Source: Novipirellula galeiformis
GTDB lineage: Bacteria; Planctomycetota; Planctomycetia; Pirellulales; Pirellulaceae
Assembly: GCF_007860095.1 (NCBI RefSeq)
Contig: NZ_SJPT01000002.1
Coordinates: forward strand, 620,001-684,000
Direction of reading: 5' to 3'
DNA: 64,000 bases
The position numbers were made by a program, and so were the translations under genes. Of this stretch, positions 29,770 through 41,718 are shown piece after piece. Under the pieces are notes generated by a model. That model was not told where the DNA came from. It did no database searches and was given only the letters and a program-made list of their open reading frames with translations. Position 1 is the first letter of the stretch. Each line of letters begins with the position of its first letter.

Positions 29770-30174
29770 CTAGCCGCGGTGCAATCCTGCAACCACGTGA
29801 CAGCAGTCGCTCTTCTTTTGCCGTTCGCACTGCTGCAACGCCGACTTCAGCACACGTCGAACGTGGCGAAGGTCCTTTAATCGGCGATCCGTATCGATAA
29901 GTCGATCTTCAATCAGCCCGCGAACGCTTCCACAGGTCGGCGTCCCGCCAGAGCCATCTAGAAGCAGTGCCTTCACGTCGTCGAGCGTGAATCCGGTCGT
30001 TTGTGCCGCTCGGATGAATTTCAACTTTTTGAGTGATTCGTCACTATACAGCCGGTAATTCCCCTGGCTTCGTCCTTCGGGTTCGACGAGACCGACCCGT
30101 TCGTAGTATCGAATGGTCGACGTGGGAATCCCCGCTGATTTCGCTAGTTGGCTAATGGTGAATTGTCCGCTCAT
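29770..30174 (-). CDS. MerR-family metal-responsive regulator
   Basis: 134 residues from ATG 30174 (eight more codons upstream are open). The N-terminal winged helix reads FTISQLAKSAGIPTSTIRYY then ERVGLVEP, followed by NYRLYSDESLKKLKFIRAAQ and the FTLDDVKALL hinge, all standard MerR. Cysteines in TPTCGSVRGLIEDRL, LQQCERQ and DCCHV sit where MerR/ZntR/CadR-type proteins bind metal. It is divergent from the MerT/MerP-containing fusion gene, with an appropriately spaced promoter between them. Likely senses Hg(II) or another thiophilic metal and controls that gene. Confidence 0.9.
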   Translation of the reverse strand: MSGQFTISQLAKSAGIPTSTIRYYERVGLVEPEGRSQGNYRLYSDESLKKLKFIRAAQTTGFTLDDVKALLLDGSGGTPTCGSVRGLIEDRLIDTDRRLKDLRHVRRVLKSALQQCERQKKSDCCHVVAGLHRG

Positions 30175-30207
30175 AACTCGTCTGTCGAAAGAAAACATGA
30201 AATGGAC

Positions 30208-30239
30208 TTGACCTTACATCTGGGTGCAAGGTCGATAAT
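30208..30239 (+). promoter_or_regulatory. MerR-type promoter/operator with 20-bp spacer
   Basis: TTGACC (30208-30213) and GATAAT (30234-30239) are separated by 20 bases, the over-long spacer typical of MerR-activated promoters. Between them lies the dyad GACCTTACAT-CTGG-GTGCAAGGTC (30210-30233). It points toward the fusion gene starting at 30287, about 48 bases downstream. Confidence 0.78.
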
Positions 30240-30286: not shown

Positions 30287-31492
30287 ATGAGTAACCAAGT
30301 AACCACTCCGAATCGAGTCGAGTGTCCAGCCTGCGGTAAGAAGGCGAAGCGAGTTGCAACGGCTACGCTGCAAGCGTTGCTAAAAGACGAGTTCGCTGGC
30401 GAATTTGCGGCCGATGACCACTCCGGTTGTCGTTCCTCTGGTAGCAGCGATGGTGGCTGTTCATCGTTGACCAAGGACAGAGGCTGGCGGTTTTGCGATT
30501 CGCAGAATTGCGACGTCGTCTACTTCGCTGAAACTGATGACCGGGCGTTTACGAAGGACCAATTGCGCGTCGGTGTCGGGGTCAAGCAAACGACTGGAGA
30601 GCGGCGCTTGTGTTACTGCTTTGGTCATTCCGTCGCAAGCATCAAAGAAGAGCTTCGCTCGAAAGGCGTAAGCAACGCCACCGAAGACATTCGGGAAAAA
30701 ATGACGAACCCTGGATGCCGATGCGAGACCGAGAACCCGTCCGGCTTGTGCTGTTTGGGGAGCGTCAGAAATGGAATCAAAACTGCTAAAGGAGAAATTG
30801 GAATGCATGCTACAGATACGATAACGACACCCGCGAAGCCAACCGGTAACAAAGGCGCGAAGATTGCCAAGGTTGGAACGCTCGTCTCGGCGATCATGGC
30901 TTCGGCGTGCTGTTGGTTGCCCTTGGTCTTGCTAGCCGTCGGTGTCTCTGGAGCGGGGATTGCAGCAACATTGGAAGCATACCGCCCACATTTCATGGTC
31001 ATTACATTTAGCTTCCTTGCTGCAGCGTTCTATTACACGTATCGTCCCAAGAATGCGTACCGAGCCAAGAACACAAGCGATACCGCTGAAGGGCACGGTT
31101 GCTGTGCGAGGGAGTCACCCCGCAGTGAAGCATGCTGTCCGCCAACCACTGGCCGTTTCAACATGATGACCATGAATACAGTCATGCTGTGGGGCGTGAC
31201 CGCCATGGCGGTTTTGTTCCTGTTTGTCCCAAGCTATGTCGGAGTGTTTTTCGGTGGTGACGCGACGGCGGTGACGGGCGAAATGAATCGGGCGGCTATC
31301 AAAGTCGGAGGCATGACGTGCGAAGGCTGCTCAGCCGTTGTTGCTAAGACAATTCGCACCGTGCCGGGCGTGTTGGCAGTCGAAATCAACTACGAAAAAG
31401 GGGAAGCCATCGTCGGCAGTGAAATCGGTTGCCCCATCCCAAAAGAGCAGATTCTCGTATCGCTCCAGGACGCTGGATACACTGGCCATTAA
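30287..31492 (+). CDS. CopZ-type metal-binding domain - MerT - MerP fusion
   Basis: 401 residues in three parts. Residues ~10-165 resemble the zinc/[2Fe-2S]-binding N-terminal domain of two-domain CopZ: VECPACGKKAKRVA, a Ser/Gly-Cys loop, WRFCDSQNCDVVYFAE and a cluster-type CYCFGHS, then the NPGCRCETENPSGLCCLG block. Residues ~190-330 are a MerT-like mercuric transporter with the vicinal cysteines SACCWLP in helix 1, a second helix (FMVITFSFLAAAFYYTYRP), a Cys-pair loop and a third helix. Residues ~335-401 are a heavy-metal-associated MerP domain with GGMTCEGCSAVV. Metal would be captured by the MerP part, moved by MerT and handed to the cytosolic CopZ part. Controlled by the divergent MerR. 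Confidence 0.88.
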   Translation: MSNQVTTPNRVECPACGKKAKRVATATLQALLKDEFAGEFAADDHSGCRSSGSSDGGCSSLTKDRGWRFCDSQNCDVVYFAETDDRAFTKDQLRVGVGVKQTTGERRLCYCFGHSVASIKEELRSKGVSNATEDIREKMTNPGCRCETENPSGLCCLGSVRNGIKTAKGEIGMHATDTITTPAKPTGNKGAKIAKVGTLVSAIMASACCWLPLVLLAVGVSGAGIAATLEAYRPHFMVITFSFLAAAFYYTYRPKNAYRAKNTSDTAEGHGCCARESPRSEACCPPTTGRFNMMTMNTVMLWGVTAMAVLFLFVPSYVGVFFGGDATAVTGEMNRAAIKVGGMTCEGCSAVVAKTIRTVPGVLAVEINYEKGEAIVGSEIGCPIPKEQILVSLQDAGYTGH

Positions 31493-31562: not shown

Positions 31563-32648
31563 TTACGGAGAGCGAGTTCGAACGGAACTGGGCTGCTCTC
31601 GCTCAGTCGCAACGACCGCAATCTGGTTGTTTGACGGAGATTGCATGCAACGGGGTGATTGCAGTAACAACGCCAGCACATTGTCGGTAAAATTGCCGAT
31701 GTCGCAATCGAATTTTGTCGTATTTTCCCCTAAACGGTCTTCCCCTGTATCGCCATCGACTAGCCGCGAACCCAGCACTCCCCGAATCACAATCACTGGG
31801 TTGCGTTCATAGTCGGACCGCTGGGCAAGCGGGTTGTAGATTGCAGCGAGGGACGCGTTGTTTTTTCGAGTCACACAGACTGGCACGAACACAACCATCG
31901 CGATCACGGGCAACAACAGCCTGCACGCACGAATGGAATTTTGAACTACGGTTTCGACAACTCGTCCTGCTTTAAATTGCTTGGCCGATCGCGAGCGCAC
32001 CGACCACAAACGCAGAAGCCAAGCAAAGACTCCCAGCAACAACAGGGGCCAAAGTATAGCCAGCATGTCCGTTCGCGATACTTGTCCCGCTTCAGGAACC
32101 ATCGTTCCCACGCGAACGAGCAGATAAGTTGCAGGCAACATACCGGCCTGGCTAATCAGCCAGAATTGCTTGATTGACAATCGAGAACGTCCTGCCAGCA
32201 CGTTGACGGCAAAGAACGGCATCACGGGTGTTAGGCGTAAGAGCAGCAGTTCCCATTTGCCTAGTCCTAGGTTCCCTTGCTCTGGGCAAATCGACTGGTT
32301 CTGATCGTTCCGATCGTGCGTTGCTTTGCAAAACATGTAACGGCGACTGGCCATGAAGGCGAATGTAGCACCGGTTGTGCTCGCGAAACTTGCGACGATC
32401 GTCCCTGGTCCAAGTCCGAACAAGGGACCGGCTAGAATCGTCAGCAGCACCGCACCGGGAATCGCGAGTCCAGCCATCGTGACATAGACGCAGCTATAAA
32501 CCGCCAATCGGATCAACAGATGATATTCCGCTGCATTGGTAACGACCAGATGCAATGGGTCACGAGCGAACCAAGCAGTGGTGGCAATCACTACCCAAGC
32601 AGCGCGGATTGCATTGTCTTTCGTGCTGGTGCAAATCATCGAGGTCAT
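31563..32648 (-). CDS. TVP38/TMEM64 membrane protein with chimeric C-terminus
   Basis: 361 residues. The first ~220 form a TVP38/TMEM64 (VTT-domain) protein: AIPGAVLLTILAGPLFGLGPG, TTGATFAFMASRRYM, LLLLRLTPVMPFFAVNVLAG and LISQAGMLPATYLLVRVG. After ~235 the sequence changes: a new hydrophobic signal-like segment (LLPVIAMVVFVPVCVTR) is followed by LAAIYNPLAQRSDYERNPVI and VIRGVLGSRLVDGDTGE, which looks like the start of a lecithin:cholesterol-acyltransferase-like (alpha/beta hydrolase) lipoprotein, truncated after ~50 residues. So two genes seem to have become fused and the second lost its body. It is followed upstream on the same strand by a DUF547 gene 47 bases away, likely one operon. Confidence 0.82.
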   Translation of the reverse strand: MTSMICTSTKDNAIRAAWVVIATTAWFARDPLHLVVTNAAEYHLLIRLAVYSCVYVTMAGLAIPGAVLLTILAGPLFGLGPGTIVASFASTTGATFAFMASRRYMFCKATHDRNDQNQSICPEQGNLGLGKWELLLLRLTPVMPFFAVNVLAGRSRLSIKQFWLISQAGMLPATYLLVRVGTMVPEAGQVSRTDMLAILWPLLLLGVFAWLLRLWSVRSRSAKQFKAGRVVETVVQNSIRACRLLLPVIAMVVFVPVCVTRKNNASLAAIYNPLAQRSDYERNPVIVIRGVLGSRLVDGDTGEDRLGENTTKFDCDIGNFTDNVLALLLQSPRCMQSPSNNQIAVVATEREQPSSVRTRSP

Positions 32649-34571: not shown

Positions 34572-35747
34572 ATGAAAACAGCTCTGTTAGACGAGAAACA
34601 AGTCGCCGAGTCGTCGGTCTACCAGCGATACGCCGCTGCCGCCCAAGCAGTCGAACCCGCGCTTTGCTGCCCGGTCCAGTACTCAACCGACTTGTTGAAG
34701 GTGATCCCTCAAGAAATCATTGAACGGGATTATGGATGCGGCGATCCCACGCCCTACGTTCGCCAAGGCGAAACGGTGCTGGATCTGGGCAGCGGAGGTG
34801 GCAAGTTGTGTTACATCGCGGCCCAGGTCGTCGGTCCCGAAGGACGCGTGATTGGGGTCGATTGTAACCGTGAAATGCTGGGGCTCGCTCGCAAGCATGC
34901 ACCCGCGGTGGCCGAGCAGCTCGGTTACGCAAACGTCGATTTTCGCTACGGTCTGATTCAGGATTTAGCTCTCGATCTGGATCAACTTGCAGCCGAGTTG
35001 TCAGCACATCCCGTGAACGATCCGGCTGGCTATCTCGAGCTCCGCCACACCGAGGAACGATTACGTCGCGAACAACCACTCGTCGCTGACGAATCGGTCG
35101 ACTGCGTTTTGTCCAACTGTGTTCTGAATCTTGTCCGGCAACAAGATCGCCGACATTTGTTTGCTGAAATTTTCCGTGTCTTGCGTCGCGGAGGCCGCGC
35201 TGCAATTAGCGATATTGTCAGCGACGAAAGTGTCCCGCAGCGTCTGCAACAGGACCCGGAACTTTGGTCGGGCTGTATCACTGGCGCGTTTCGTGAAGAT
35301 GAGTTTCTTGAAGCGTTCGAGGATGCGGGCTTTCACGGAATCGAAATCGTCAAGCGACAAAGCGAGCCTTGGAGGACGGTGGAGGGAATTGAGTTTCGCA
35401 GCGTGACAGTCGTTGCGCACAAGGGAAAGCAGGGTCCCTGTTTGGAACGCGGGCAAGCGGTGTCGTATCGCGGCCCATTTAAGAAAGTCCAGGATGATGA
35501 TGGTCACACGTATTTCCGGGGCGAGCGGATGGTTGTTTGTGACAAGACGTTCAATCTGCTTCAGCAAGAACCGTACACGAACATGTTTGACGCGATTGAG
35601 CCGCGTGTCGTTGTGCCGTTGGAAGATGCGAAGCCGCTCGATTGCCGGCGCAGCACGCGACGTCATCCGCGTGAAACGAAGGGCCTCGAGTATCACGCGA
35701 CCACCGAAGCGACGAATGGCTGCAGCGACGAAGGTTCGTGCTGTTAG
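34572..35747 (+). CDS. arsM: ArsM-like SAM-dependent methyltransferase (arsenosugar type)
   Basis: 391 residues. The class I methyltransferase core shows VLDLGSGGGKLCYIAAQVVG, RVIGVDCNREMLGLARKHAP, DFRYGLIQDLALDL, DCVLSNCVLNLV and FRVLRRGGRAAISDIVSDE. Conserved cysteines in ALCCPVQY, SNCVLNLV and GCITGAF fit the arsenite-binding cysteines of ArsM-type enzymes. After ~280 a second region (GPFKKVQDDDGHTYFRGERM, VCDKTFNLLQ) and a Cys-rich end (GCSDEGSCC) match the longer form found in arsenosugar clusters. It would methylate arsenite with SAM. The radical SAM gene arsS follows after a hairpin repeat. Confidence 0.88.
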   Translation: MKTALLDEKQVAESSVYQRYAAAAQAVEPALCCPVQYSTDLLKVIPQEIIERDYGCGDPTPYVRQGETVLDLGSGGGKLCYIAAQVVGPEGRVIGVDCNREMLGLARKHAPAVAEQLGYANVDFRYGLIQDLALDLDQLAAELSAHPVNDPAGYLELRHTEERLRREQPLVADESVDCVLSNCVLNLVRQQDRRHLFAEIFRVLRRGGRAAISDIVSDESVPQRLQQDPELWSGCITGAFREDEFLEAFEDAGFHGIEIVKRQSEPWRTVEGIEFRSVTVVAHKGKQGPCLERGQAVSYRGPFKKVQDDDGHTYFRGERMVVCDKTFNLLQQEPYTNMFDAIEPRVVVPLEDAKPLDCRRSTRRHPRETKGLEYHATTEATNGCSDEGSCC

Positions 35748-35750
35748 ACC

Positions 35751-35820
35751 GTAGCCTAGGCATCCAGCCTGGGTCTCATCCATGCATCCAATTGTCCCAG
35801 GCTGGAAGCCTGGGCTACGC
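35751..35820. repeat. Palindromic dispersed repeat (family A) between arsM and arsS
   Basis: GTAGCCTAGGCATCCAGCCT at 35751 and CCAGGCTGGAAGCCTGGGCTA ending near 35818 are inverted arms around a loop, filling almost the whole 84-base gap between arsM and arsS. Could modulate read-through or stabilise the arsM message. Confidence 0.85.
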
Positions 35821-35831
35821 AAGGAACCAAC

Positions 35832-36899
35832 ATGCAATTATCACTGCTAAGGCAAAAAAGCGAACTCACTAACGCAGCCATACAGCGAGAAATCCTCGAA
35901 GGCGACGCAAAGCCACGACAGCCCTACTTCCACGAGAAGCTGCGGTCGAGCGGCTTAGAGAATCTTCGTGCCGCTGGCATCGACGTCATGCAAATCAACG
36001 TGGGCAAGTTGTGTAATCAAACTTGCACCCATTGCCACGTGGACGCGGGGCCAGACCGTCGCGAGAGCATGTCGCGAGAAACGGCCGAGCAGATCATCGA
36101 CGTGCTTGCGAACAACGACATTCCCACCCTAGATATTACGGGGGGCGCACCGGAGATGAATCCCCGTTTTCGTTGGATCGTCGAGCAGGCGCACAAGCTT
36201 GGTTGTCGAGTCATTGACCGCTGCAACCTAACGATCTTGATGGCCAATGGATTCAAGGATTTACCCGAGTTCCTAGCCAAGCATGATGTCGAGGTTGTCG
36301 CCTCTTTGCCGTGTTACATGGAAGAAAATTGTGATAGCCAGCGCGGCAACGGCGTTTTCAAACGTTCCATTGACGCACTCAAACGTTTGAACCAACTTGG
36401 CTACGGACACCCCGGTTTGGGGCGGAAACTGACGCTCGTTTACAATCCCACTGGAACCGCATTGCCGCCGTCGCAACACGAACTCGAAGCGACCTACCGT
36501 GACGAGCTGAAAACGCGATACGACATTGTCTTTTCGGAACTGCACACGATTACCAATCTTCCGCTCAGCCGGTTTCTCGATGAACTGCTCCAGGGCGACC
36601 AACTCGATGTGTACATGCAGAAGCTGATCGACAGCTTCAATCCGCGCACCGTCGATGGCGTCATGTGTCGCAGGATGATCTCGGTGGATTGGCAGGGATA
36701 CCTGTTCGACTGCGATTTCAACCAGATGTTGAACATGGGATTGTCTGCGGACCTGCCACAGCATATTTCAGATTTCGATCCCTCGAGACTTAGCGACCGC
36801 ATGATCCAAACCGGCCGGCATTGCTTTGGCTGCACCGCCGGATGCGGATCGGGATGCCAGGGAGCCACGGTAACGTTTGCGTCGAAGGAGGCATCGTGA
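35832..36899 (+). CDS. arsS: ArsS-like radical SAM enzyme (arsenosugar biosynthesis)
   Basis: 355 residues. The radical SAM cluster motif is CNQTCTHCHVDAGPDRRE (CxxxCxxC near residue 60), followed by PTLDITGGAPEMNPRFRWIV (the GGxPE SAM-binding segment), RCNLTILMANGFKDLP, the LTLVYNPTGTALPPSQ block and a C-terminal Cys-rich SPASM-like end HCFGCTAGCGSGCQG. This arrangement matches ArsS/DUF3641-type proteins that attach an adenosyl group during arsenosugar synthesis. The binding-protein gene overlaps its stop codon by three bases, so the cluster is an operon. Confidence 0.9.
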   Translation: MQLSLLRQKSELTNAAIQREILEGDAKPRQPYFHEKLRSSGLENLRAAGIDVMQINVGKLCNQTCTHCHVDAGPDRRESMSRETAEQIIDVLANNDIPTLDITGGAPEMNPRFRWIVEQAHKLGCRVIDRCNLTILMANGFKDLPEFLAKHDVEVVASLPCYMEENCDSQRGNGVFKRSIDALKRLNQLGYGHPGLGRKLTLVYNPTGTALPPSQHELEATYRDELKTRYDIVFSELHTITNLPLSRFLDELLQGDQLDVYMQKLIDSFNPRTVDGVMCRRMISVDWQGYLFDCDFNQMLNMGLSADLPQHISDFDPSRLSDRMIQTGRHCFGCTAGCGSGCQGATVTFASKEAS

Positions 36900-37741
36900 T
36901 TCCACGCCCACCTCTCCTGAGAACTACCACGCTTTTCGCCCTGACACTACTATGCTTCGTCTTCCTCGGTTGCTCGTCAAACGATGCTGATAAGAACAAG
37001 AAGCAAATTGTGCTGACAGGGTCGAGCACGGTTGCGCCATTGATCGGTGAGATCGCCAAACAATTTGAAGCTCAGCATCCCGGAGTGCGGGTCGATGTGC
37101 AAAGCGGCGGCTCTTCACGAGGCGTTGCCGACACACGCCGCGAACTTGCAGATATCGGAATGGTCTCGCGAGACCTGAAGACCGGTGAACAGGATCTAAC
37201 AGCGTTCACGATCGCTCGAGACGGGATCTGTGTCATCGTGCATCGAGACAATCCCGTTACATCACTGACCGACGATCAGATTGTGGCTATCTATACAGAC
37301 CGCATCAACAATTGGAAAGAAGTTGGCGGATCAGACGCTCCCATCACCGTCGTCAATAAAGCCGAAGGTCGATCCACGCTGGAATTATTCGTAAGCCATT
37401 TCAATTTGGACAACGCACAAATCAAAGCCGATGCCGTGATCGGTGACAACGAACAAGGAATCAAGACCGTTGCCGGTAACCCCAACGCCATTGGTTACGT
37501 TTCGGTTGGAACCGCTGAATACGATGCCACTCACGACGTCGCGATCAAACTGCTGCCATTGGCGGGCATTGCGGCGTCCATCGAAAACGTACGAGCCGGC
37601 ACGTTTCCATTGTCGCGGCCGTTGAATCTGGTCGTGACAAGCGAGACCACCGGAATCGTGGAGGAGTTCATCGCGTTTGCTTGCTCACGCGATGTAAATG
37701 AGATCATCTTGGAGCAGTACTTTGTCCCGCTTTCCCAGTGA
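36896..37741 (+). CDS. PstS-family substrate-binding lipoprotein
   Basis: 281 residues from GTG 36896, which overlaps the arsS stop and has AAGGAGG six bases before it. The signal LTLLCFVFLGCSSNDADKNK ends in a lipobox. The mature protein is of the phosphate-binding PBP-like superfamily: LTGSSTVAPLIGEIAKQFEA, VDVQSGGSSRGVADTRR, DIGMVSRDLK, and GICVIVHRDNP, with the SGSST/SGGSS oxyanion-binding loops visible. In a normal Pst system it binds phosphate; placed in an arsenosugar cluster it may take arsenate or provide specificity between the two. The permease gene begins inside its 3' end. Confidence 0.9.
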   Translation: MIPRPPLLRTTTLFALTLLCFVFLGCSSNDADKNKKQIVLTGSSTVAPLIGEIAKQFEAQHPGVRVDVQSGGSSRGVADTRRELADIGMVSRDLKTGEQDLTAFTIARDGICVIVHRDNPVTSLTDDQIVAIYTDRINNWKEVGGSDAPITVVNKAEGRSTLELFVSHFNLDNAQIKADAVIGDNEQGIKTVAGNPNAIGYVSVGTAEYDATHDVAIKLLPLAGIAASIENVRAGTFPLSRPLNLVVTSETTGIVEEFIAFACSRDVNEIILEQYFVPLSQ

Positions 37742-38588
37742 TACCATTCTCGTTTGGCTGCTTCGCGGCTGCGGATTGCTGACGGGGGCGATCACCGTGC
37801 TAATTGTAGGCTTTCTGATTTGGGAATCGTCACCCGCGTTTCGCGATGTCGGTGTTCAGCGTTTTGCTTCCGACTCATCGTGGCATCCTTCGGCGGGACC
37901 GACGAAGGGACAATTCAATCTTGTTCCCATGATTGCGGCGACATCACTGGCAACTGCGGGCGCAGTTCTATTGGCCGCACCGCTTGGGATCGGCTCGGCG
38001 GTATTCGCCCATTTCTATGCACCACGACGATTAAGACGAGCGTACGGTAAAATGATCGAACTGCTCGCCGGGATTCCTTCGGTAGTGTATGGCCTGTGGG
38101 GGCTGGTGGTGCTCGTTCCACTCATTTCGCGATGGCATCCGCCGGGAACCAGCCTGTTGTCGGCGATCATCATCCTGACGATTATGATTCTACCGACGAT
38201 CGCGTTGCTGGTCGGTGCCGCTTTTGACAACCTGCCGTCGGAGTACCTGCGAGCATCCGCGGCACTAGGGCTTTCACGCGGACGAACCGTCACTAGCGTC
38301 GTCTTTCCAGCGGTTCGGTCAGGATTGTTCACGGCGGTGCTACTGGGAACAGGCCGAGCGATCGGCGAGACGATGGCGGTATTGATGGTTGCTGGCAATG
38401 TCGTTCAAAACCCAACCCGCATTTTTCAACCCGTCCGAACGATTACAGCAAACATTGCATTGGAGATGGCTTACGCGATGGACGGCCATCGCTCGGCATT
38501 GTTCGTTTCGGGGCTGCTGTTGATGGCGATGGTCATCGTGCTCGCCGGATTCGCAGAATGGGTCAGTCGGGGGCGTATTCATGGCTAG
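37698..38588 (+). CDS. PstC-family ABC transporter permease
   Basis: 296 residues from ATG 37698; a TTG at 37722 has GGAG in better position and would shorten the overlap with the preceding gene. Six membrane helices, e.g. GCGLLTGAITVLIVGFLIWE, ATSLATAGAVLLAAPLGIGS, LLSAIIILTIMILPTIALLV and ALFVSGLLLMAMVIVLAG. The EAA-type loop EYLRASAALGLSRGRTV, which contacts the ATPase, and GTGRAIGETMAVLMVAGN near the end are typical of phosphate permease PstC. Overlaps pstA by eight bases. Confidence 0.9.
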   Translation: MRSSWSSTLSRFPSDTILVWLLRGCGLLTGAITVLIVGFLIWESSPAFRDVGVQRFASDSSWHPSAGPTKGQFNLVPMIAATSLATAGAVLLAAPLGIGSAVFAHFYAPRRLRRAYGKMIELLAGIPSVVYGLWGLVVLVPLISRWHPPGTSLLSAIIILTIMILPTIALLVGAAFDNLPSEYLRASAALGLSRGRTVTSVVFPAVRSGLFTAVLLGTGRAIGETMAVLMVAGNVVQNPTRIFQPVRTITANIALEMAYAMDGHRSALFVSGLLLMAMVIVLAGFAEWVSRGRIHG

Positions 38589-39459
38589 TCATCCTCAAAC
38601 CTATTCGCGTTCAGCCGTCAGCGTATTGTTTGATACACTGGCAACCTGTGTCGCATGGTCTATCGCAGCCTTGGTCAGTGGCATTTTTGTTTGGATATTG
38701 GCGGACATCGTCATCGCAGGTCTGCCGTCGATCTCTTGGAGTTTTTTAACCGAAACGCCTCGAAATGCGGGACGCGATGGAGGGATTTTTCCCATCATCA
38801 TTTCAACGCTACTGATCCTGTTCGTGGCAATGCTCGTTTCGGTCCCGCTCGGTTTAGGAACCGCGATCTTACTGAGCGAATTGACACGGGCGGAAAGCAC
38901 GTTTGGAATGCTGGTGCGCCGCAGTTTGGATGTTCTCGCAGGCGTGCCTTCGATCGTATTCGGGCTGTTTGGCAACGCATTTTTTTGTATCTATTTGGGA
39001 CTCGGGTTTTCGATTTTATCAGGAGGGCTGACGCTATCGTGTATGGTGCTGCCGATCCTGATTCGAGCGACCGAGGAAGGTTTTCGCTCGGTTCCGAACG
39101 AATATCGCATGGGTGCGGCGGCGTTGGGGTTATCTCGAACTGCGACGCTTGTGCAACTGTTGTTGCCAGCCGCAGTACCCGGGATCGTCGTTGGATTGGT
39201 GCTGGGTATCGGCCGCGCATTAGCGGAGACCGCGGCACTGATTTTTACTAGCGGATACGTGGATCGTGTCCCCGGTTCGTTGTTCGATTCCGGGCGTTCC
39301 TTATCCGTTCACATTTTTGACTTATCGATGAATGTTGCTGGCGGTGATCGATATGCGTATGCCTCCGCATTGGTTCTCATTGCGATGTTGATCGTCATCA
39401 ACGCGAGTGCGAGTTGGACTGCCAATCGTTGGTTGAGAAAAAGGATCGTGGTGACATGA
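38581..39459 (+). CDS. PstA-family ABC transporter permease
   Basis: 292 residues with six hydrophobic segments. Landmarks: SISWSFLTETPRNAGRDGGI, ATLLILFVAMLVSVPLGLGT-type second helix, VLAGVPSIVFGLFG, the coupling loop EYRMGAAALGLSRTATLVQL and GIGRALAETAALIFTSGYVD, all characteristic of PstA. Start codon lies inside the end of the pstC-like gene, and the ATPase gene starts in its stop (ATGA). It forms the transmembrane pore together with the preceding permease. Confidence 0.92.
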   Translation: MASHPQTYSRSAVSVLFDTLATCVAWSIAALVSGIFVWILADIVIAGLPSISWSFLTETPRNAGRDGGIFPIIISTLLILFVAMLVSVPLGLGTAILLSELTRAESTFGMLVRRSLDVLAGVPSIVFGLFGNAFFCIYLGLGFSILSGGLTLSCMVLPILIRATEEGFRSVPNEYRMGAAALGLSRTATLVQLLLPAAVPGIVVGLVLGIGRALAETAALIFTSGYVDRVPGSLFDSGRSLSVHIFDLSMNVAGGDRYAYASALVLIAMLIVINASASWTANRWLRKRIVVT

Positions 39460-40334
39460 AATCAGAAAACAGAGAACGCCCTGACCGCGGTGGCTGCGAA
39501 CAGGCGAATTGTCCGGAACACAACGGGTTCACCCTCGGTCCCCTCGATACCGGACCACCATGCTGTATTCCCGAACCATTGATCGAAGTCGACGACCTTG
39601 CGGTTCACTACGGGAATGCTCGCGTCTTGAGCGGAATTTCGTTGACGATCAACCGCGGATGTGTGACCGCGTTGATTGGGCCATCGGGCTGCGGAAAGAC
39701 AAGCTTCTTGAGTAGTTTGAATCGCATGACGGACATGATTCCTGGATGCCGTGTCGAGGGAAACATTACGATTGGCGGGCTCGACGTCCAAGCGACGAAG
39801 GATGTGATCTCGCTCCGCCGTCGTGTCGGAATGATCTTTCAAAAACCAAATCCCTTTCCTCTTTCGATTCGCAAAAATATCGAGATGCCTTTGAAGGAAC
39901 ACGGTTTTCGCCAGCGAAGTGAACGGACAGAAATCATCGAAAGCGTTCTCGAGGACGTCGGCTTGTGGGCAGAGGTGAAGGATCGACTTGATTCATCCGC
40001 GTTGTCTCTTTCGGGCGGCCAACAGCAACGGCTTTGCATCGCACGCGCTCTCGCTTTACGCCCCGAAGTTCTATTGATGGATGAACCATGTAGTGCTCTG
40101 GACCCGTTGGCTAGCAGTGTCGTTGAAGAGCTGCTGCAGAATTTCCGAGGACGGTACACCGTTGTCATCGTGACCCATAACTTGCAGCAAGCGCGGCGGG
40201 TCGCCGATTATGCCGCTTTCTTCTGGGCGACCGACGGTACGGGCACGTTGATCGAACACGGGACCGGCGCCTGTATATTCGACAAACCGCAACAACCGTT
40301 GACGGTAGCCTATGTCAATGGCAAGGCGGGGTAA
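39456..40334 (+). CDS. PstB-family ABC transporter ATPase
   Basis: 292 residues from ATG 39456 (ATGA overlap). A 45-residue Cys-containing N-terminal extension (GGCEQANCPEHN) precedes the ATPase domain. Walker A is GPSGCGKTSFL, the PstB-specific loop is GGLDVQATKDVISLRRRVGM followed by IFQKPNPFPLSIRKNI (the QKPNPFP motif), the signature is LSLSGGQQQRLCIARAL, Walker B is VLLMDEPCSALDP and the switch His is in VIVTHNLQQA. It energises uptake through the two permeases. The extension is unusual for PstB. No phoU is present. Confidence 0.93.
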   Translation: MKSENRERPDRGGCEQANCPEHNGFTLGPLDTGPPCCIPEPLIEVDDLAVHYGNARVLSGISLTINRGCVTALIGPSGCGKTSFLSSLNRMTDMIPGCRVEGNITIGGLDVQATKDVISLRRRVGMIFQKPNPFPLSIRKNIEMPLKEHGFRQRSERTEIIESVLEDVGLWAEVKDRLDSSALSLSGGQQQRLCIARALALRPEVLLMDEPCSALDPLASSVVEELLQNFRGRYTVVIVTHNLQQARRVADYAAFFWATDGTGTLIEHGTGACIFDKPQQPLTVAYVNGKAG

Positions 40335-41718
40335 CGAAGTGACCGCGAATCAAATCGAGAAACTCACTGGCGACCCGTCGGGATCAACCACGTTTTCGGC
40401 GAAGCCTCATCGCGTGATCGTGTTTTCACGATATCCAACACCTGGCGTGACGAAGACCCGGATGATCCCCGCGCTCGGTGCCGAGCGCGCGGCACGCCTA
40501 CAGCACTCATTGACGAGTTTGACGTTGGGGGTGGCGAGTGATTATCGCGCGGACCGTCCCTGCGATTTAGAAGTTCGGTTCGTAGGCGGCGATCCAACGT
40601 TGATGCGAGAAGCGTTTGGAACGGAAAAACGCTATCTCCTGCAACGAGGCGTAAGTTTGGGAGAGCGACTAGTCGACGCATTCGCTGTCGCGTTCAACGA
40701 GGGGGCAACACGAGTCGTCGTGATCGGATCAGACTGTCCCGAAATTTCTTCGACGATTCTCGACGAAGCAATCAACGCTTTATCACACGCCGATGTGGTC
40801 CTGGGGCCGGCAATCGACGGTGGTTACTACCTGATTGGGCTGAACACGAATCAGCCTCAACTCTTTCAAGGGATCGACTGGGGAAGCGGAAGCGTATTGC
40901 GAGATACCATTGCAAAGGCAAAGCACTCGCAATGCAAAGTTCATCGATTGCAAACGCTTTCGGATGTCGATTATCCCGAGGACTTGGTTACCTGTCGTCG
41001 TAATCCCGAGGCCTTCGGCAACGTGCTTCCCCTGACTCGGGATGGTGTCTTGTCGGTGATTGTACCGACACTGAATGAAGAACGCTGTATTGAACAGACG
41101 CTTAGCCGAATGGTCGGGATTCCGAATGTCGAAGTCGTTGTCGCGGACGGCGGCAGCGAGGATTCGACGATCGACATCGCGCGAAACATGGGTGCGACGA
41201 TCGTCTCTGCTAAACCTGGGAGAGGGAGACAGATGAATGCGGGCGCGGCGATCGCGACTGGCGACGTGCTGCTATTTCTGCATGCTGACACCCAGGTGCC
41301 GGACTCGTTTCATCAGCATGTTCGGGCGACACTCCAGCATGGCGTGATCGCGGGCGCGTTCTCATTGCGGATCGACGGTGACGATTTTGGACTGAGATGG
41401 ATTGAGAAAGGTGTGAATTTGAGGTCGCGTTTTCTTGGGCGACCTTACGGGGACCAGGGGTTGTTTGTGTCCGCAAGTTGTTTTTTCAAAATCGGCGGTT
41501 TTCCAAATTGGCCGTTAATGGAAGACGTCGAATTTGGCAGCCGCTTGCGGAAATACGGCAGCATCTCGCTGGCCGAAGCCGCCGTCACAACGTCCGCACG
41601 CCGGTGGTTGCGACTGGGGATTCCGAAGACCACACTCATCAACCAACTTTGCATCGCCGGATTTTGCTTGGGCATTCCATCGGAGACATTGCACCGCTGG
41701 TATCGGTCGCGGCGTTAA
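40312..41718 (+). CDS. Fused TIGR04282/TIGR04283-type arsenosugar glycosyltransferase
   Basis: 468 residues in two glycosyltransferase-A-like halves. Residues ~28-225 carry VIVFSRYPTPGVTKTRMIPA, the GSDCPEIS metal motif and VLGPAIDGGYYLIGL, the signature of the TIGR04282 (nucleotidyl-/glycosyl-transferase, CofC-like) family. Residues ~240-465 are a GT2 domain with LSVIVPTLNEERCIEQTL, VVVADGGSEDSTIDIARNMG, GRGRQMNAGAAIATGDVLLF, LHADTQVP and EDVEFGSRLRKYG, matching TIGR04283. Both families are defined by co-occurrence with ArsM/ArsS; usually they are separate genes. The start overlaps pstB by 23 bases; a GTG at 40339 just after the pstB stop is an alternative. It likely adds the ribose/glycerol-type sugar part. 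Confidence 0.9.
   Translation: MSMARRGNEVTANQIEKLTGDPSGSTTFSAKPHRVIVFSRYPTPGVTKTRMIPALGAERAARLQHSLTSLTLGVASDYRADRPCDLEVRFVGGDPTLMREAFGTEKRYLLQRGVSLGERLVDAFAVAFNEGATRVVVIGSDCPEISSTILDEAINALSHADVVLGPAIDGGYYLIGLNTNQPQLFQGIDWGSGSVLRDTIAKAKHSQCKVHRLQTLSDVDYPEDLVTCRRNPEAFGNVLPLTRDGVLSVIVPTLNEERCIEQTLSRMVGIPNVEVVVADGGSEDSTIDIARNMGATIVSAKPGRGRQMNAGAAIATGDVLLFLHADTQVPDSFHQHVRATLQHGVIAGAFSLRIDGDDFGLRWIEKGVNLRSRFLGRPYGDQGLFVSASCFFKIGGFPNWPLMEDVEFGSRLRKYGSISLAEAAVTTSARRWLRLGIPKTTLINQLCIAGFCLGIPSETLHRWYRSRR

Follow-up and report, generated by a model that had tools for sequence, protein, structure and literature searches.

A CopZ-type, MerT and HMA fusion protein with a divergent MerR-family regulator in Novipirellula galeiformis and related Planctomycetota

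Results

A three-domain fusion gene beside a divergent regulator

The window analysed here is a 64,000-nucleotide stretch (C2:620001-684000) of the 7.4-Mb Novipirellula galeiformis genome, which is assembled in 30 contigs. It contains an open reading frame that begins with an ATG start codon and encodes a 401-residue product in which three Pfam families (zf_CopZ, MerT and HMA) each exceed their own gathering score. The genome encodes a single MerT protein and a single CopZ-type domain protein. The features of the locus are as follows.

29770-30198, minus strand: divergent MerR-family regulator, 142 aa, with Cys89, Cys124 and Cys132-133 (PF13411, PF09278; aligned with MerR 4ua1)
30208-30239, plus strand: predicted MerR-type promoter/operator, TTGACC-20 bp-GATAAT, enclosing the near-palindrome ACCTTACATCTGGGTGCAAGGT (pattern upstream of homologues)
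30287-31492, plus strand: fusion gene, 401 aa, CopZ-type [2Fe-2S]/Zn domain, MerT and HMA (MerP-like) (profiles, model and cysteine conservation)
30317-30784, plus strand: N-terminal CopZ-type domain, residues ~11-166 (PF18423, NF047645, fold match to 2hu9, cysteine conservation), with cysteines 13, 16, 70, 75, 109, 111, 144, 146, 155 and 156 (alignments)
30857-31249, plus strand: MerT domain (PF02411, hydropathy, loop charge), with Cys208-Cys209 in helix 1, Cys272/273 and Cys283/284 in the inter-helix loop, and a last helix at ~293-321
31286-31489, plus strand: HMA domain (MerP-like), GMTCEGC, residues ~334-401 (PF00403, fold match to MerP 1osd)

An internal start that would give a separate MerTP (ATG at 30803, after AAAGGAG) was set aside and is not relied on, since its methionine is absent from the closest relative (L035).

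A VTT-domain ORF of 361 aa lies beside the fusion gene (31563-32648, minus strand). It looks truncated at its 3′ end, because its TBK1r relative (L114:13291-15525) has 744 aa and carries a VTT plus an LCAT-like domain. An arsenosugar-type cluster occupies 34572-41718 (plus strand) and encodes an ArsM-like methyltransferase, an ArsS radical SAM protein (448 bits, cut-off 300), a PstC/PstA/PstB-like phosphate transporter and two arsenosugar glycosyltransferases fused as a pair (TIGR04282-TIGR04283).

The N-terminal domain matches the Fe-S/Zn module of archaeal CopZ

The original prediction of a CopZ-type domain, MerT and MerP in one polypeptide was confirmed by Pfam and NCBIfam cut-offs and by the modelled folds. 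At the N-terminus, zf_CopZ (PF18423) matched residues 12-50 and the next stretch with 59.4 bits against a cut-off of 28.4, and NF047645 (CopZ_Nterm_CC, putative Fe-S cluster-binding metallochaperone) scored 106.8 bits, above its curated cut-off of 100. A PDB sequence search retrieved the N-terminal domain of Archaeoglobus fulgidus CopZ (2hu9; E 3.3e-8). The fusion was modelled with AlphaFold from an input alignment of 43 relatives, and residues 11-166 of the model aligned with 2hu9 over 120 of 129 residues (Z 13.4, rmsd 2.3; VIA-align, also Foldseek). Model confidence (pLDDT) was ~90 for most of this domain and ~95 for the HMA domain, and was lower, modest at best, in the MerT part. The matches to NF047645 and 2hu9 rule out a disordered Cys-rich N-terminal tail.

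Cysteine conservation was followed in a first alignment of the fusion with 22 full-length relatives (23 sequences) and in a later alignment of 43 rows. The N-terminal part of the fusion shares the fold of the A. fulgidus CopZ N-domain, and nine of ten cysteines are common to both: Cys13, 16, 70, 75, 109, 111, 146, 155 and 156 align with cysteines of 2hu9, the stretch around 13/16 being weakly scored. With the exception of Cys16, retained in 21 of the first 23 sequences, all of these are invariant over the 43. Cys144 is one cysteine beyond the A. fulgidus set and was kept in all 23 of the first-aligned sequences.

In A. fulgidus CopZ, an HMA-type chaperone is joined to an Fe-S domain to which Cu(II) reduction is attributed, and Zn2+ and [2Fe-2S] are named in the title of the original publication on the protein (PMC7558416). 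Judged by sequence and modelled fold, the N-terminal part of the fusion is of this predicted Fe-S/Zn kind; the term 'CopZ-type' therefore holds in the sense of the A. fulgidus N-domain and not in that of the small HMA-type CopZ chaperone. Its role may thus be that of a metal acceptor or redox partner, with predicted cofactors. The capture role originally proposed for this part is doubtful, since the chaperone-type HMA domain lies at the other end of the chain. Both proteins place the N-domain before an HMA domain, a likeness of order that carries no claim on descent; unlike A. fulgidus CopZ, the fusion has MerT between the two and is linked to a MerR with an Hg triad.

The MerT and HMA parts

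MerT (PF02411) matched residues 191-260 with 48.6 bits (gathering cut-off 32.9) and HMA (PF00403) residues 338-398 with 37.1 bits (cut-off 24.8), while the model of residues 332-401 aligned with MerP (1osd) at Z 11.4 and 29% identity (VIA-align; also Foldseek). Over the 43 sequences, the vicinal pair Cys208/209 and Cys283 of MerT are invariant, and Cys273 of the MerT loop and Cys345 and Cys348 of the HMA CEGC motif are nearly so.

With the MerT unit between them, the N-domain is expected to face one side of the membrane and the HMA domain the other. The mean loop charge over the 43 sequences is +2.5 before the last helix and -0.8 in the segment after it, and these values, together with MerT precedent, favour a predicted N-in/C-out layout. 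The topology is tentative, given the modest confidence in the MerT model and a net charge close to zero ahead of helix 1.

MerTP fusions (NF033556) likewise combine, on a single chain, MerT helices with a MerP-like HMA domain behind them. The protein scored 90.3 bits against a cut-off of 180 and so is not a member by this model, but it appears to work like MerTP; it differs by the added N-terminal [2Fe-2S]/Zn-type domain and the Cys-rich inter-helix loop. The MerT/CopZ fusion-like heavy metal transport selenoprotein (MerT_CopZ_Se, NF045683) also joins MerT to an HMA-type domain, and relatives in the same phylum have in-frame UGA at metal sites. Here the fusion scored 55.4 bits against a cut-off of 375, has cysteine in place of selenocysteine and possesses the extra CopZ-type N-domain. 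Two MerT-HMA relatives contain such codons: L012 (about 1501-2103) has an in-frame UGA at a metal site, giving CPPU in HMA, and L013 (about 1501-2079) has in-frame UGAs giving SUC in the MerT helix and UHTU in HMA. On these reading frames, both are likely selenoproteins.

A MerR-type regulator and a unique operator

In alignment with MerR 4ua1, Cys89, Cys124 and Cys133 of the divergent regulator fall at the Hg-ligand positions. CadR-type regulators have a Cys spacing of +7, which occurs in none of the 27 family regulators, while 24 of the 27 show the +9 spacing of Tn501 MerR. Related regulators were found at 28 of 36 loci, some of the loci being short or incomplete. The Hg triad of Tn501 MerR consists of Cys82, Cys117 and Cys126, of which Cys82 comes in addition to the pair of ligands used by CueR (PMC5027573). 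The top NCBIfam match of the regulator is TIGR02051 (MerR), at 98.8 bits. As this is below the curated cut-off of 150.85 and the ZntR-type score is almost equal (97.6), Hg specificity is likely and not proved.

The promoter pattern lies upstream of 21 of 25 homologues and had zero matches in 100 shuffles. The proteobacterial mer palindrome is TCCGTAC-4-GTACGGA with a 19-bp spacer; the fusion operator differs from it, its outer half-sites ACCTT/AAGGT partly resemble the CueR site, and a spacer of 20 bp agrees with promoters of the ZntR or firmicute MerR type (PMC1526738). With up to two mismatches allowed, the operator occurs once in the 7.4-Mb genome, and the predicted regulon is therefore a single structural gene. 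On this sequence pattern, the fusion gene points to being the whole MerR regulon of N. galeiformis. The locus shares MerR control, MerT and MerP functions and a divergent layout with the classical mer operon merR-merT-merP-merA (Tn501/Tn21). It differs in having a single protein, extended by an N-terminal Fe-S/Zn-type domain, for the T and P functions, in its operator palindrome and 20-bp spacer, and in the lack of merA.

Distribution and variants of the fusion

Among 392 Planctomycetota genomes surveyed, 44 gave a match at 1e-30, and in 25 a single locus covers the whole architecture by match coordinates. In 398 genomes of the phylum to which G485 (titled Porticoccaceae) belongs, the halves occur apart except on the MAG contig of G485 itself; this sole full-length carrier is probably a misbinned contig. 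A second candidate from outside the phylum, the MAG titled 'Bacteroidales bacterium' (L041, JAIXLE010000155.1), was sampled with the phylum of the window and falls within the Planctomycetota sample, so that its title seems wrong. No phage matched the fusion. Each part of the protein is already known and modelled in NCBIfam; no published description of the triple architecture was found in the open-access literature searched.

Several relatives adjoin RND or P-type metal efflux genes, and plasmid pK2D_1 carries the fusion gene near czcCBA. At L098:992-1560, two genes take the place of the fusion, one for the CopZ-type domain and one for MerT-HMA, with an ATGA overlap; this arrangement could represent the step preceding fusion. 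A second C-terminal HMA domain follows in tandem in the fusions of L036, L038-L041, L045, L050, L051 and L014, and an extended form (L086:769-2751, minus strand) runs from a CopZ-type domain through MerT and two HMA domains to a C-terminal thioredoxin domain. In L050 and L116, a separate two-HMA protein sits between the fusion and merA. Downstream of the L010 fusion is a small ORF with a hydrophobic N-terminus followed by the Cys-rich motif GFVCPITGEELPCSKCCPL, and a small ORF with a similar motif, also after a hydrophobic N-terminus, lies downstream of the fusion in L014.

MerA is usually absent and, where present, linked to the fusion

No merA lies near the fusion gene, as originally noted, and canonical MerA is absent above the cut-off from the whole source genome (best match 393 bits, cut-off 454.45). 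Five flavoprotein paralogues were considered as MerA encoded elsewhere; all score below the cut-off, and these five best candidates lack the C-terminal MerA Cys-Cys tail. MerB gave no match in the genome, nor in the control genomes, and this result is hence not evidence of absence.

Canonical MerA was likewise missing from 12 of 14 fusion-bearing genomes searched. Its absence is thus the usual state in the family and, taken alone, is no sign of another metal. In both genomes with MerA above the cut-off (G332 and G072), merA is directly downstream of the fusion. Neighbouring reductases with a MerA-type SCCA tail were found in L038, L040 (503 bits, cut-off 454), L050 (498 bits) and L051, and in the more distant relatives L057, L060 and L061; L050 and G072 represent one and the same region of a genome, and the merA-linked sets therefore overlap.

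The pK2D_1 homologue (L004:10001-11236; CP036351.1, K2D_46930) was deposited as 'merA: Mercuric reductase'. Its Pfam content is zf_CopZ, MerT and HMA only, with no reductase domain. For this plasmid of the strain, a paper from 2024 gives a putative mercuric reductase (MerA) (PMC11588811), which is apparently the K2D_46930 fusion gene.

Discussion

We consider it moderately probable that the fusion is the sole predicted structural gene of a MerR-controlled response to mercury or a similar soft divalent metal, and that it works as an Hg(II) relay. In the known relay, the metal passes from MerP Cys33/36 to MerT Cys24/25, then to MerT Cys76/82 at the cytosolic face and on to MerA, and the MerP and MerT cysteines map onto conserved cysteines of the fusion (PMC5715351). 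By analogy, the outer HMA domain (CEGC, Cys345/348) would take up Hg(II) and, if transport runs inward, hand it to Cys208-Cys209, the vicinal pair within the first membrane helix of MerT. From there it would move to the cytosolic loop pairs 272/273 and 283/284, and then to the tethered cytosolic N-terminal [2Fe-2S]/Zn domain, which would occupy the usual receiving place of MerA. The N-domain might retain Hg(II), pass it on to another enzyme or to thiols of the cell, or perhaps reduce it; in merA-owning relatives, the reductase lies downstream of the fusion. On its own, bringing Hg(II) into a cell that lacks a reductase would do harm, and a step is therefore missing from this picture.

This layout fits the original proposal that one polypeptide relays the metal, while the suggestion of a metal other than mercury is not supported. 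The metal is more probably mercury, or a soft divalent metal like it, than an altogether different one, because the regulator has all three Hg-ligand cysteines, the MerT Cys pair is invariant and merA follows the fusion in both MerA-bearing genomes. That the system serves Cu(I), Cd(II), Zn(II) or Pb(II) is nevertheless a minority reading with several observations in its favour: merA is absent from the source genome, HMA domains bind both Hg and Cu, the N-domain has its known counterpart in a copper chaperone, the operator half-sites are CueR-like and metal efflux genes adjoin several relatives. Against these stand the Cys spacing of the regulators, usually of the MerR and never of the CadR type, and the MerT helix-1 Cys-Cys and merA linkage, which point to Hg. 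Moreover, the regulator has the Cys82 equivalent, whereas CueR uses the other two positions (PMC5027573).

The N-domain might instead be a regulatory or structural add-on, such as an Fe-S sensor gating MerT, that takes no metal from it. While its Fe-S/Zn sites would be occupied and not obviously free for Hg, and genomes that lack the fusion commonly have stand-alone copies of the domain, its repeated joining to MerT in one chain and the overlapping genes of L098 argue for a joint function. The conservation of the extra Cys144 also speaks against this reading, which we regard as unlikely.

A built-in reductase, with the attached [2Fe-2S]/Zn domain reducing the Hg(II) that MerT delivers and replacing MerA in Planctomycetota that lack it, appears a little less probable again. 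It would accord with the Cu(II) reduction reported for the A. fulgidus Fe-S domain (PMC7558416), whose N-domain cysteines the fusion retains, with the rarity of canonical MerA in fusion-bearing genomes and with a predicted regulon of seemingly one gene. MerA-bearing relatives, however, keep these cysteines unchanged, so that the N-domain is not simply a MerA substitute there. A one-electron cluster would also need two rounds or a partner, and no obvious partner gene adjoins the fusion. We know of no Hg(II) reductase of the [2Fe-2S]/Zn-domain type. Lower still do we place the broader idea of a self-contained one-gene mercury detoxifier for Planctomycetota without MerA, the tethered [2Fe-2S] domain of the importer reducing or otherwise disarming Hg(II). 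An assembly or annotation artefact, with two genes merged through a frameshift or missing stop, is refuted: frames are broken in two MAG relatives (L053 and L054) and the halves are separate genes in L098, but many independent genomes, among them complete ones and a plasmid, hold one open frame, and the 25 Planctomycetota genomes with the whole architecture keep the predicted metal-ligand cysteines invariant or almost so.

A large survey listed a single Planctomycetes genome with MerA (PMC8261052). The published reading of merA on pK2D_1 is affected by the present analysis, as that gene is a fusion without a reductase domain (PMC11588811). In the relay that we favour, a single chain would capture the metal, move it through the membrane and supply a likely Fe-S/Zn acceptor in the cytosol, and in N. 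galeiformis this chain looks like an entire MerR regulon. The fusion family is thus a testable candidate for mercury handling by Planctomycetota.
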